Source: Gymnopus androsaceus JB14
Taxonomy: Eukaryota; Basidiomycota; Agaricomycetes; Agaricales; Omphalotaceae
Direction: 5' to 3'
NCBI GenBank assembly: GCA_009733575.1
Contig: ML769494.1
Location: forward strand, 124,001-188,000
DNA: 64,000 bases
Part shown: positions 18,819 to 27,434 of the stretch, piece after piece
How positions within the stretch are numbered: the first letter of the stretch is position 1
How the letters are laid out: every line of letters starts with the position of its first letter
Position numbers and translations under genes: made by a program
Notes under the pieces: generated by a model
Seen by the model: only the letters and a program-made list of their open reading frames with translations
Told to the model about the DNA's origin: nothing
The model's database searches: none

Positions 18819-18824
18819 TATAAA
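18819..18824 (+). promoter_or_regulatory. TATA box of the repeat-peptide gene
   Basis: TATAAA lies about 77 bases upstream of the ATG at 18,901 and is followed by a pyrimidine-rich leader, consistent with a core promoter for this small gene. Confidence 0.5.
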
Positions 18825-18900
18825 ATAAATTATCACTGATAAATAAATATCCCTTTCATTGCGACTTTCTCCCATTCACCTTCTAACCAGCCCTCCTACG

Positions 18901-19257
18901 ATGCGAACTACCTTCTCCGTAGCATTTGCTTTTGCCATCTTCTCGATGTTGGCTTCAGCTGCTCCCATTGAGGTACTTGTCTGGATTCATTTTTGTCGTG
19001 CATCCTACTGACTTTTTTCTTGATTATGGTAGTCGAACGTAGTTGTTCGAGGTCCACCGGATTGGAGACGCGAGGGAGCTGAAGTTGCCCGCGGTCCACC
19101 GGATTGGAGACGCGACGAGGTTGCCAGAGGTCCACCGGATTGGAGACGCGAAGGAACTGAAGTTGCCAGAGGTCCACCGGACTGGAGACGCGAAGGAGCT
19201 GGAGTTGCCAGAGGTCCACCAGACTGGAAACGACAGGAGGCTGATAGCGCGATATGA
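18901..19257 (+). CDS. secreted repeat-peptide precursor, Kex2-type (KEP-like)
   Basis: Two exons (18,901-18,972 and 19,033-19,257) give a predicted 98-residue protein. Exon 1 is a signal peptide, MRTTFSVAFAFAIFSMLASA, with a likely cut before APIE. Exon 2 is almost wholly five repeats: RGPPDWRR four times and RGPPDWKR once, separated by the acidic spacers EGAEVA, DEVA, EGTEVA and EGAGVA, with tail QEADSAI. Every unit ends in a dibasic RR or KR, the cut site of the Golgi protease Kex2. The spacers resemble the Glu-Ala tracts trimmed from the yeast alpha-factor precursor. Codons for the repeated residues vary (CGA, CGC and AGA for the first Arg) while the peptide is conserved, which suggests selection on protein. 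By analogy the product is a small secreted peptide around GPPDW, either a signal or a RiPP core. No tailoring gene such as UstYa/DUF3328 was recognised nearby. Family identity and function are inference. Confidence 0.8.
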
Positions 19258-20871
19258 CATACTGAACGGACGACCATCATCATCATCTCCTCACCTTCAT
19301 TCGCTCTTCTTCACCCAAATATCTGCAGTCGTAATTATTGCCTGCATTTCACACTCCTTCAGCGCACCATGTTCTCCACTTCATCCCCAATCTCACCTTC
19401 AGTCCCGCTGGTCCCCGTCGCTTTCGTTAATGCTGTGACCAGCAACACATTCGCATAATCACATACTTCTAGGAATTATTTTCATTGGCGGGGTTCGCGG
19501 CGAGTAGGCTAGTTTGGTTTAAAAAATTATGAATCCTTGGTCCGCATTGTAATGATTCTAGGTTATCTTGCTGCATGTATCTTGTTGTTTCCCCGTTCTT
19601 CTTTGTAGCGCCAAACTATTATTTTTGTAAAACGTTCAAGATCGTTGTACACCCCTTTGCGTCTGATGAATCGCGATAACGACGGCTCCCGACTGGCTCC
19701 CGACCCTTCTCCGTTGCGCGCAGGCAGTCAGTCGGAGGTAGCCGGACCCTGAACGGTATGGCGGTGTTCCTGAGACCTCGCCTCGGCCCTCTTGCCTCAT
19801 GCCTCTTCCACGATTTTAGCATTATCAACACCTCCGCTCATTCGACCTGTCGTTTAAAGTCCAAAACCTCTTCCCTGAATAGAGGTTCGTACACGTCGGC
19901 CATAGCGGCGTCGGAAGTCCATGCTGCATCCACGTACACCCTGGTCCAGTCTGGTCCCCGCATAACTTCAGGTCATGTTGCGAACGGCGTTTCGAATGCC
20001 AAATGGGTATGGTACAGAGACAGGGATTTAGATCCTCATCCTTAAGACAAGAATGTTACTTACCACAAAAAAGCACACCTGTACTAATTAATTTGCCTTA
20101 GTCGATATTCAGTTGTCGATAGGATGACAGTGTCGAAACTGAATCAGTTCAAAATGAGCTACGCAGTGAGCGAATACATAGATAGATATCTCACATACAT
20201 CTCCATCCCCGAAAAGATCTCGATAATTAGAGAAAGCAAGAGATTGCGGTCAGTCAGAATCATTTAGTGCAAAGGGACGAGACGCGTTGCCCTTTTAGTA
20301 ACGATTCGTGTGTGCTTCTCGATTTGAGTTCAGTAAGTAAGCACCGAGAAAAACCAAGGCATACAGTTGATAAAGCTTACGACCTTGGACGGCTCTGATA
20401 AAATTGCCGGTGGAACTGAACCGTAAATTCTGCTGGAAGATCAAGGAGCACTATAGCGTAGGACAATCGCATATGATTTACAGAAAAAACACCCATTCGA
20501 TAAAGCAAGGTTGCAAAATCCTGGACAAAAACTAGTACACTCAGACCAGAGAAAATTCTGCGATGAAGGAGAGCACTGAGGAGGAAGTCATGTCAAATCT
20601 CCGCTGTAGGATAACAGAATAGGCTGCTTACTAGTGTCCAATTCACTGAACTCAAGACGCGTCTGCATACTGCACCTTTGCCCAAAAAGGGCATATGAGT
20701 GGTAAACCACGAATTGAGAGTCATAGAAGCAAAGCATCGATTAGGTGAGTATACAGTGGATTGGATGTACTAGGATTACAGTGTCGATGATAGATTAAAA
20801 GTGAAGAATTTCGTCTAGGGTGAGCCGCATGAGCATATGAGCAAACTGTTGAAAATCACAACGGACCTCTA
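19258..20871. other. intergenic
   Basis: No supported gene. An open frame at 19,758-20,045 has no recognisable motif and is not called. Confidence 0.45.
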
Positions 20872-23971: not shown

Positions 23972-25574
23972 TCAATACTCGGCATAGAGCTCGCGCGCTA
24001 GCGGCGAGCGTTTTCTCATTCCATCGCCATTTCCACCTTGGGAATGACATCCGCGGTACCTCACAGCCATCTTCTCCCGATGGCGCAACACAAGTGTCGC
24101 GACTAGTTGGGAGGGGCTGAGGACGCAGTGGGGGGAAGAGTGAGAGCCGGGAGTAAAGGGAGATACTGGGGGAGGAGACGGGATAGGTGTGGGTGCCACG
24201 ATGGGTAGTTGCGTTTGCAAGGGAACAAATCCAGTAGAGCTGTCCGACGAGGAGGGACCGAAGAGAGTCAATGAAGGCGTCAACGGTTGCCTACAGGGTT
24301 CGGCAGTTTCTACATCAGCCATGGGAGCATCATTCTCGTCCGTAGGTTCAAGAAATCGTGCAACGGGTGAAGTAGGTCGTTCAGGCCGATCAACGTCCAT
24401 ACCCATCACAACTTCATTCTGTTCCGGAAGACTTATGTCGTCAAAGAACGTGGCACATGTAGCGTGTCCATCGAGATCAGGAAGCACGATTGTCCTAGTA
24501 GGTGTTGCGACTGGCATCATCACAGGCTCGGAATTGACAGTGACCGCGAAACTGGGCGTCGAGACAGTCACAGCAGATAGAGCTACAGGTGCAAGTGGCA
24601 TGCGAAGGTGTGATGGAAGAGATGAAAGAGGCGCAAGCGGCTCTCTCTCGCGATATCCCCAGTCAGCAAGAATCTTGCTTAGCCGATCAACGAGCAGGAC
24701 ATCCTGGCCATGCATGATACGGTCCTGCACGCGCTGCTTCCCTGACAAAGGATCAATGTTCTCGTCAGCCTCCTCTTCTTCATCATCACTGAGGATATCA
24801 AACGTCACACTCCCACTGCTCTCCACATTGTCAACGTCCATCTTGTTAGAGAGTGCCATCTGCTCCCTCCAAATGATTCCATGAGAGATACTCCTCCTAA
24901 TCAACGCAAAGAAGCGCATATCCTTGAAGGAATATGAGGCTGTTTTGCTTGACTGTGGGTCAGCCGCACGCGGTTTGGACTTCTTGGAAGGTGTCGACTG
25001 GCGACGGGGAGGCGAAGAAGGAGCCGATGAAGGCGGATTCTCCTTTCTGTGCGGAGATGAGATGGAATGCACCGAGCTTGAGCGTCGATGACCGAGAAGA
25101 AGATGATTGGAGCGTCGGCGACGGCCTACCGGGAAACTAGAAGAGGGCTGAGGCTCGGACTCGTCTGACGTGGCACTAGGGAACGGAATAACATTGACGT
25201 CCACAGTCTCCAGCGGAGTGTCACGTATCGGCCGAGCGAAAGACCTGGAAAGATTCCTATCTTCATCACAGATGTTGACGGTAACATTCTCCAATGAAAT
25301 CGTGCAAGTTGGAGGCGACTTTCTCGAGCTCGGCGACGCAGAGCGTTTGGGAGATTTCTGGAGAAGAAAAGGAGGAGAGTCTCGATATGGTGGACGTCGT
25401 CAACGATGATGCTGATAATAACGACAAAGACGAGCCTCGAGAATGCGAACGGTCGAGACGCTTCAACTTTGTCGGCGAGGAAGGAAGAAACGACAGCGAC
25501 TTTCTCTTGTTACCACTCGAACAAGTTTGTTCAGCAACATTGTCGTCGCGAACAGAAGACAACATGAAAGTCAT
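23972..25574 (-). CDS. low-complexity hypothetical protein, probably nuclear
   Basis: The ATG at 25,574 opens MTFMLSSVRDDNVAEQTCSS and a Ser-rich region with SPTKLKRLDRSHSRG. A second, much longer frame (about 440 residues) takes over near 25,280, either through an intron not resolved by eye or a one-base break. It holds basic patches (GRRRRSN, STPSKKSKPR), an acidic run (ILSDDEEEEADENIDP), the ordered-looking segment DVLLVDRLSKILADWGYRER and a Pro/Ser-rich end, stopping after LARELYAEY. No known domain was recognised. The basic and acidic patches suggest a nuclear protein, but that is only inference. Confidence 0.55.
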
Positions 25575-27434
25575 GGAGGTAATTCGTTATCGTATACAAG
25601 AGGGAAGGATAAAGGACAGTGGGTGAGCTGGGCTCCAATGTGGTCAAAGGGCTTTGTCGTTAACGTTGTGAAAGGCCCTTGTAAGATGAACGGAAGAAGA
25701 CAACCCAAATTGGCGGCTTTTGATGGGGAGGGCGTTTCGGGCCGAGTCACGTGTGCGCTCCTCGCTCCTCTTGCGTCACTGACGAAAGCAACACAAACGA
25801 CGTCGACGACGAAAGGGAAGGAACAACCAGCCAAAAACTGCTCAGGCTCTCAGTGTTATCTTTAAGTAGTCCGCAAAGTCAATCAGCTGATATCATAATC
25901 ATTCTCATCTTTCGGCGAAACAACGAAACATGAGGAGAACACGTTCCAGGCGCGAGAGTTCAGGTTCATTGATCCATCATTCGGTATTTCGGACGTGCAT
26001 TGTACTGTATATAATCTCTCGCAGAGCCAAAAGTGCTGGCAGTAACTGCAAAGTAGCTACAAGCGGTAGATAATCTCAACCTGACCTATACAGCAGATGA
26101 AGGTTGGACCCCAAAACTGGATCCATGCGAACAACAGGCTCTTAAACCACGAGACAGATGCACGATACCTGCATGGATCGAGGTCAGATCCAGATGAAAG
26201 CGGCGGTTTTACTGTGCATCCACTGCGGTGTGAAAGAGCTAGGACATTCTCGGTGAAACGGGCGCAGTTTGGACGCACGTCCTTCTAGTCAGTATAAGTA
26301 CCGGAGTAGATGCCTCGATTTGGACTCGATTACGGTGTATCCAATTCGCCTTGAGAATAGATAAACCGTCAGTCTTCTGCCGTGAAGGTGAACGATATCT
26401 CGTACATACATATAGGAGAAGTGCGATTGGATGAGTATAAATTTAATACAGCTTCAGAGGCTTCTTTGTAGATATGTAGGGAAGAGTCGAGATCTGAACG
26501 TGTTGATAAACAATGCCAGGAATACGATTCCCTCCGAGTTCTGTACAAACGTCAATTTTGTGAAAGACAAGAATGTCGTTGAATCGTTCCTACTTGCATT
26601 CATGGATCAATTCCCCTTCCTCTTCGGGGTCTAAAGCCCTGGCCCACCCCAAGGGGTTAGGGGATGTCATGACTGAAAGTTATCATGTATGCAGTCAGTG
26701 AGTCAGTGATGTTCCGAACGGAGGAGCACATACAACAATCGTTGTTCCGTGAAGGATGTGACTAGCATGCTAGCCAACCACCCGTGGTCTTGTACCCTCG
26801 AATTCAACGTTGTACAAAAGCACGGACTGACTCGTGAATACGAAAGCCTACCTGAGGAACAAAACAAGCGAGTGGTGCGACAAAAAAAAAACCTAGGCCT
26901 GAAGCGGCCCCTCTGTGAGGCTGTCGTTGGTAAAGTAAGGAGACAACGACAACCTCTCGAGCCGCTTCAGACCTAAATAAATCTCGTCAGACAGTCAATA
27001 AGTAATTAACCTCCCTGCAATGCCAAGCGATACGAGGAGTATATGTATGCTTGACCGAGCCAGCGCCAGCTCAAAGACGTATATATTTCTTGGGAGGCTC
27101 TTATTGTCAATAGTCACTGATCTCCAGTCTTATTCATCGACGGCCATTTGGATAAGTTAGTTGACCTCCTAGGTCGACATATAGTAGCAATAATTCCCGC
27201 GTGGCAGACGCGTACAGAAAGAAAAATTACCGTTCGAAATAATTCGCAAGTCCTAAACGTTGAGGTTCAGTAGTAAGTGCAGCTCTCGGTACAAGCAGGC
27301 GGGGGTATCATGAGAGTTTGATGATTGATCGACGTAGTTGAAATTTTTATTTTTAGCTGCAACCTCGTTTCTGTCTCCAACCACCACCTCTATTTCTACG
27401 ACTGACCCCATACTAACCTTCCAAGGATTCGTTA
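25575..27434. other. long intergenic region
   Basis: No supported gene. It holds an almost perfect stem-loop at 26,894-26,975, listed separately. Several open frames of 60-90 codons lack motifs. Confidence 0.45.
26894..26975. repeat. long imperfect inverted repeat (stem-loop)
   Basis: The outer arms AGGCCTGAAGCGGC (26,895-26,908) and GCCGCTTCAGACCT (26,961-26,974) pair with one mismatch and extend one more base pair outward. The inner arms GAGGCTGTCGTTG (26,917-26,929) and CAACGACAACCTC (26,944-26,956) pair with one mismatch around a 14-base loop. An asymmetric bulge separates the two stems. No flanking duplication or gene is evident. Confidence 0.8.

Follow-up and report, generated by a model that had tools for sequence, protein, structure and literature searches.

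Precursors of ascomycete alpha-pheromones consist of a signal peptide followed by repeats that are separated by Kex2 sites. The definition and counts of Kex2-processed repeat proteins (KEPs) come from PMC6339444 and PMC7329392, and KEP peptides are widespread in mushrooms. According to PMC9769878, in which the functions of KEPs are called largely unknown, many basidiomycete KEPs have a C-terminal Trp. Mass spectrometry detected one C. cinerea KEP in two lengths (the longer DDDPEGPPAPSW and the shorter GPPAPSW), as well as SGTGEASAADW in L. edodes and SGVAADW in Pleurotus. After expression of C. cinerea KEPs in Pichia, the peptides QMRPPSW and QYKAPSW were seen and cleavage after a single Arg was suggested. 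In the same source, knockouts of six C. cinerea kep genes gave no phenotype, and synthetic peptides had no antibacterial action.

The gene analyzed here lies in the window, that is, the whole analyzed stretch of 64,000 nucleotides (positions 124001-188000 of contig C112, in a genome of 83.3 Mb and 934 contigs). It is very probably an agaricomycete-type KEP with Trp-ended peptides. Its signal peptide, short repeats, and dibasic cut sites are those of the Trp-ended KEPs described in PMC9769878 (C. cinerea 490115 and 447393, P. ostreatus 1091723, and L. edodes 2599). The linear peptides of these KEPs end in PSW or ADW, whereas the predicted core of the window gene is GPPDW, and within this group the gene differs in having a single Arg in its spacers instead of an STE13 ladder. 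The putative Basidiomycota alpha-type pheromone-like KEPs of PMC6339444 have the alpha-factor-like layout in common with it; unlike them, the window gene lacks an XA/XP ladder, and EA-KP ladders occur in related copies on contig C246. The layout is also that of ascomycete alpha-pheromone precursors, for which a C-terminal PCW is noted in Fusarium and others (PMC6339444); the window core contains no Cys. Dikaritin precursors of the ustiloxin type likewise combine a signal peptide with Kex2-separated repeats (PMC7329392).

The sequence-only reading had presented the peptide as a candidate new one whose motif could not be assigned to a described product. This was upheld only in part, since Trp-ended agaricomycete KEP peptides were already described: [PA]PSW and AADW forms have been detected by mass spectrometry (PMC9769878), while no paper naming GPPDW was found in a literature search, the relatives in the supplementary tables of the KEP surveys being beyond its reach. 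Among the papers listed for PPDW and PPSW strings, none dealt with fungal peptides, judged by title and abstract.

Structure of the window gene

On the sequence evidence, 18901-19257 is a real two-exon gene (Table 1). Its spliced translation (98 aa plus stop) bears out the earlier description of a signal peptide exon followed by five RGPPDW-[RK]R units with short spacers. The units begin at residues 30, 44, 56, 70, and 84, the Tandem Repeats Finder program gives a repeat unit of 42 bases, and the reading frame is preserved across the 6-base length change in the second spacer. As in KEPs generally, the protein contains near-identical internal repeats (here five), and a dibasic KR/RR site closes 5/5 units; as in Trp-ended agaricomycete KEPs, a C-terminal [PA]-[DSA]-W core precedes this site. 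Hydropathy analysis indicates a signal peptide (12-residue maximum of 2.43 at residues 7-18, against -0.75 elsewhere), and we take the sequence A-S-A to fit the signal peptide cleavage pattern.

Table 1. Features of the window gene and their positions in the window
Feature	Position	Strand	Sequence and details	Basis
TATA-like box, weak (presumed)	18819..18827	+	TATAAAATA; ~80 nt upstream of ATG	
Exon 1: signal peptide and start of pro-region	18901..18972	+	MRTTFSVAFAFAIFSMLASAAPIE; hydrophobic segment VAFAFAIFSMLA	similar exon 1 in paralogue C29
Intron, 60 nt, phase 0	18973..19032	+	GTACTT...TTATGGTAG (GT start, TAG end)	sequence model; position as in C29
Exon 2: five repeat units, tail, stop	19033..19257	+	tail QEADSAI	spliced translation
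Unit 1	19048..19071	+	RGPPDWRR, preceded by SNVVV	translation, codon pattern
Spacer 1	19072..19089	+	EGAEVA	translation
Unit 2	19090..19113	+	RGPPDWRR	translation, codon pattern
Spacer 2	19114..19125	+	DEVA; 6 nt shorter, in frame	translation
Unit 3	19126..19149	+	RGPPDWRR	translation, codon pattern
Spacer 3	19150..19167	+	EGTEVA	translation
Unit 4	19168..19191	+	RGPPDWRR	translation, codon pattern
Spacer 4	19192..19209	+	EGAGVA	translation
Unit 5	19210..19233	+	RGPPDWKR	translation, codon pattern

A Pfam search with the window protein gave zero matches, an NCBIfam search gave one chance match far below the cut-off (15.5 of 350 bits), and a PDB sequence search with the precursor found no match. 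An antisense open frame of 122 residues (18911-19276 of the window, - strand) runs across the repeats, most plausibly as a side effect of their being in frame.

The window frame is not a product of chance, because it has a counterpart on contig C29 and the changes in its core are mostly silent. Across the 83-Mb genome, a 17-base codon pattern for PPDW[KR]R had 30 matches, compared with 4 when the pattern was reversed. Four contigs with repeat precursors hold 28/30 of these matches (C246, 12; C29, 10; C112, with the window gene, 5; C68, 1), and the remaining two are singles on C7 and C201, where no repeat frame is present. As had been noticed from the letters, synonymous codons vary among the window units while the peptide stays constant; this concerns Arg (CGA/CGC/AGA), Asp (GAT/GAC), and Pro (CCG/CCA). 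The comparison of codon changes between repeat units, proposed in the sequence-only reading, gave a pN/pS of 0.108 for the core and 0.409 for the spacers. Departures from the core consensus were synonymous in six cases and non-synonymous in two, whereas ~6.1 non-synonymous ones were expected; the resulting P = 0.003 is only a guide, because the plain uniform substitution model takes no account of transition bias or of the common descent of the units. Between units of the paralogues, the core pN/pS was 0.053 for C29, 0.000 for C209, and 0.142 for one C246 copy.

Paralogues and database relatives

The same genome was searched with the window protein and with PPDW and PPSW codon patterns. On C29, from position 129123, MRANGILAAVALLFSMLAVVTAHPIE is followed by a phase-0 intron and then by ten PPDW units in an open frame. 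This intron is 51 nt long and sits after ..PIE, at the position where the 60-base intron had been predicted in the window gene. The exon-1 DNA alignment of the two genes scored 14.5, while the maximum in 2000 codon shuffles was 10.5; this similarity is the best evidence that both the start and the intron of the window gene are right.

Contig C246 carries four PPDW/PPSW precursor copies, three of which have 88-91% DNA identity to the fourth over 0.8-1.2 kb. Three copies are open from ATG (277, 232, and 223 aa) and have a single intron directly after the signal peptide; in the remaining copy (~44.8 kb) a stop lies 71 codons into the exon-2-like stretch, and the repeat frame is open for 192 codons. 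The C246 cores are SPPDW, SPPSW, and APPSW, and XA/XP dipeptides after the Kex2 site (the STE13 signature) are present in spacers such as EA-KP. In addition, a PPSW precursor on C209 has six RGDPESSNWPPSW cores, 6/6 of which start with Arg-Gly; compared in pairs, they show 85 synonymous differences and 0 non-synonymous ones. The C209 intron reads as phase 2, in contrast to phase 0 in the window gene, C29, and C246.

The relatives on C68 and C30 are shorter and, like one C246 copy, apparently decayed. Two inverted, diverged PPSW precursor-like copies, apparently decaying, were observed at C30:252500-260000. Among the matches listed, several open exon-like frames without a Pfam match occur near the C246 and C68 precursors, and the sequence flanking these precursors seems to have been copied along with them. 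Among the matches listed for the window and 11 paralogue-region loci, the only common neighbours were the precursor frame and its antisense frame.

Protein searches of 5.8 billion sequences gave 2, 4, and 14 matches at E limits of 1, 0.01, and 1, respectively; two matches were shared between searches, leaving 18 distinct proteins, and the search at E 0.01 scored the best 8000 candidates. The window protein itself was absent from the protein matches. Named relatives at E < 0.01 belong to Hohenbuehelia grisea, Amanita thiersii, Crassisporium funariophilum, Suillus ampliporus, Mycena pura, M. rebaudengoi, A. inopinata, and Pleurotus eryngii. The sequence-only reading had suggested looking for related repeat proteins in other agaricomycetes. 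P-[DSA]-W-[KR]R cores were found in six named genera with E < 0.01, namely Hohenbuehelia, Amanita, Crassisporium, Suillus, Mycena, and Pleurotus, and at weaker E in three more (Galerina, Sanghuangporus, and Paxillus), the core being common to the relatives partly by selection because the queries were rich in PPDW and PPSW. The matches from the latter three genera, Westerdykella (Ascomycota), and Glomus (E 0.019 to 0.97) are leads by motif. A 12-residue hydrophobic segment with a mean >= 1.85 is located in the first 100 residues of 15/18 relatives (in the first 36 in 12 of them), while hydropathy gives no clear signal peptide for P0001, P0004, and P0012; P0004 also has no dibasic sites after its repeats. 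A viral origin was considered in one scan of viral contigs, where none of 8 pattern matches was confirmed as a relative.

Predicted processing and the mature peptide

The proposed Kex2-processed repeat precursor gains support from the paralogues, the relatives, and the mostly silent core changes. We hold with good confidence that the signal peptide would route the precursor into the secretory pathway, that Kex2 would cut after the five RR/KR pairs, and that Kex1 would trim the basic residues, leaving fragments that end in ..GPPDW. For related precursors, the release of Trp-ended peptides is demonstrated in PMC9769878. Linear GPPDW, at most five per precursor, would be freed by a further cut behind the constant single Arg (V-[AV]-R|G), for which the chances appear about even; without this cut, the products would be 10-12-mers, e.g., EGAEVARGPPDW. 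That the constant Arg of RGPPDW is possibly a second cut site is a point absent from the sequence-only reading. The peptide would then be secreted and act outside the cell, as a candidate self-signal or in contact with other organisms; the hormone-like role proposed in the sequence-only reading is a possibility. According to a profile search of the genome, the Kex2 P-domain is present in at least two places (C5 and C19), a lower bound because of introns, and DPPIV-N has two matches at one locus on C27.

Fragment analysis was performed for 21 precursors split at KR/RR, 20 of which gave internal Trp-ended fragments of 5-14 residues (n = 90). C209 was dropped since its fragments were too long, P0004 was dropped as well, one C246 copy was used, and the first fragment of each protein was omitted. 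Among the 70 unique fragments, position -3 is Pro in 68, position -4 is Pro or Ala in 61, and position -2 is Asp, Ser, or Ala in 64. GPPDW is flanked directly by RR and KR in P0002 of Hohenbuehelia grisea, and SPPDW lies between two KR in P0016 of Sanghuangporus. A complete XA/XP ladder leads to a 5-residue core in 23/90 fragments, to four residues in none, and to six in one. Ladder pentapeptides unique per protein number 15, against a mean of 3.6 with shuffled spacers (0/2000 shuffles as high). Cores of 3, 5, and 7 residues agree about equally well with the ladder phase (24, 23, and 22 fragments), because the ladder has a period of two residues. In DPP-IV specificity, Pro at P1' blocks the removal of a preceding x-P or x-A. 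With Pro at position 3, STE13-type dipeptidyl peptidases should come to a halt, which would make the pentapeptide x-[PA]-P-[DS]-W a natural end point. With this rule added, 25/90 fragments end as pentapeptides, 11 of them supplied by P0003 alone, and 65/90 stay longer. It is the directly flanked cases and the proline rule that favour a 5-residue core over 3 or 7.

Where a fragment contains a single basic residue, it occupies position -6, immediately ahead of the pentapeptide, in 8/20 cases (null mean 2.25, P = 0.00075, four proteins), of which four are the window gene's own, and at -8 in 6/20. The STE13 signature is absent from the window spacers, which begin with EG or DE, so the window pentapeptide depends on the putative monobasic cut. 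In a C246 protein with VER|GP-SPPSW and VER|DP-SPPSW, an Arg cut plus the trimming of one dipeptide would also yield a pentapeptide. In place of the STE13 ladder of some relatives, the window gene appears to rely on a single Arg, and the best candidate product is linear GPPDW, with predicted cuts at RR/KR and, probably, at the lone Arg that precedes Gly. In this genome, one core, x-PP-[DS]-W, is packaged in three ways (single Arg, STE13 ladder, and plain dibasic); since the same core stands under different processing styles, its mature form should be predictable and the paralogues may be redundant.

A variant of this explanation dispenses with the single-Arg cut, so that the products would be the longer Kex2/Kex1 fragments EGAEVARGPPDW, DEVARGPPDW, EGTEVARGPPDW, and EGAGVARGPPDW. 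We consider it a possibility of some weight, though not the favoured one. The calculated [M+H]+ values are 571.251 for GPPDW, 1283.602 for EGAEVARGPPDW, 1141.527 for DEVARGPPDW, 1313.612 for EGTEVARGPPDW, and 1211.580 for EGAGVARGPPDW. The dibasic pairs are the sole canonical Kex2 sites in the window protein, its spacers are free of an STE13 ladder, and the C. cinerea KEP seen in two lengths (PMC9769878) would agree with longer products; against this, Arg-Gly stays constant across 5/5 window units amid varying spacer residues (E/D, G, A/T, E/G) and also begins the C209 cores, P0002 has GPPDW alone between its dibasic sites, and the Pichia products suggested single-Arg cleavage. It is unlikely that the dibasic pairs stay unprocessed, be it in a repetitive protein that is secreted or part of the wall or in a silent relic: the apparent decay of relatives on C30, C68, and C246 would be in line with a relic, but the reading frame of the window gene is unbroken and its core changes are mostly silent, W-[RK]R ends 5/5 units, and living mushrooms do process related precursors (PMC9769878).

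Least probable of all, to the point of being nearly dismissed, is a cyclic dikaritin-type RiPP precursor with a core cross-linked by UstY-type oxidases, as the sequence-only reading had allowed. Dikaritin precursors share the signal peptide, repeats, and Kex2 sites, and the genome contains at least 51 exon-level matches to the UstYa family (DUF3328), but 0/51 are on C112, C246, C29, C209, or C68 (these counts being lower bounds), and the lack of a UstYa match on the window's own contig makes the dikaritin assignment unlikely. Cyclization of dikaritins needs Tyr or Phe in the core, and GPPDW has neither. A Pfam scan of 20 of the 154 window ORFs >= 90 aa found no UstYa; GTP cyclohydrolase, DUF1295, two P450 pieces, Sel1, and CRAL-TRIO scored above their cut-offs, none of which would evidently modify the GPPDW peptide. 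In basidiomycetes, DUF3328 genes lie near few KEP genes, 103/1680 according to PMC7329392. Several UstYa matches are closely spaced on C5, C64, C47, and C339, and true dikaritin-type clusters may be located elsewhere in the genome.

Weak Ste2-like similarities in the genome

Class I (Ste2-class) receptors are stated to be confined to Ascomycota in PMC12842992 and PMC13308352, and the latter attributes basidiomycete mating to STE3-type receptors. It is a doubtful idea that the x-[PA]-P-[DS]-W peptides form an alpha-factor-like family of mushroom signals read by divergent Ste2-class receptors. If Ste2-like genes did respond to x-PP-[DS]-W peptides, alpha-factor-type signalling would extend beyond Ascomycota. 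The genes in question, found on C121 (about 25127-26375), C318, and C142, encode three related membrane proteins with a weak likeness to Ste2; they are a receptor lead of candidate rank, and their link to the PPDW peptides is hypothetical.

The STE2 Pfam model exceeded its cut-off of 27.2 bits only in the exon-level genome search (C121, 29.8 bits), while the whole proteins of C121 and C142 scored 17.7 and 20.8, respectively. STE2 was the sole Pfam match, below the cut-off, of both the spliced C121 protein (357 aa; E 0.0022) and C142 (E 0.00026); C318 had zero Pfam matches, and the TP of the loop motif is missing from it. In reversed and block-shuffled controls of C121 and C142, STE2 appeared in 0/6, and E-values of this order are weak evidence because two control sequences gave other chance Pfam matches (E 0.018 and 0.058). 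A plain hydropathy scan of C121 showed six separate segments, not seven. C121 alone matched the alpha-factor receptor in PDB only at E 0.17, and the best PDB match of the three-protein profile was the yeast alpha-factor receptor (E 0.024), around the first loop, where C121 and C142 have RRTP[LI]FI.N in common. STE3 has 33 matches in the genome, which together with the database relatives point to an agaricomycete, and one true STE3 piece, used as a control, matched STE3 only.
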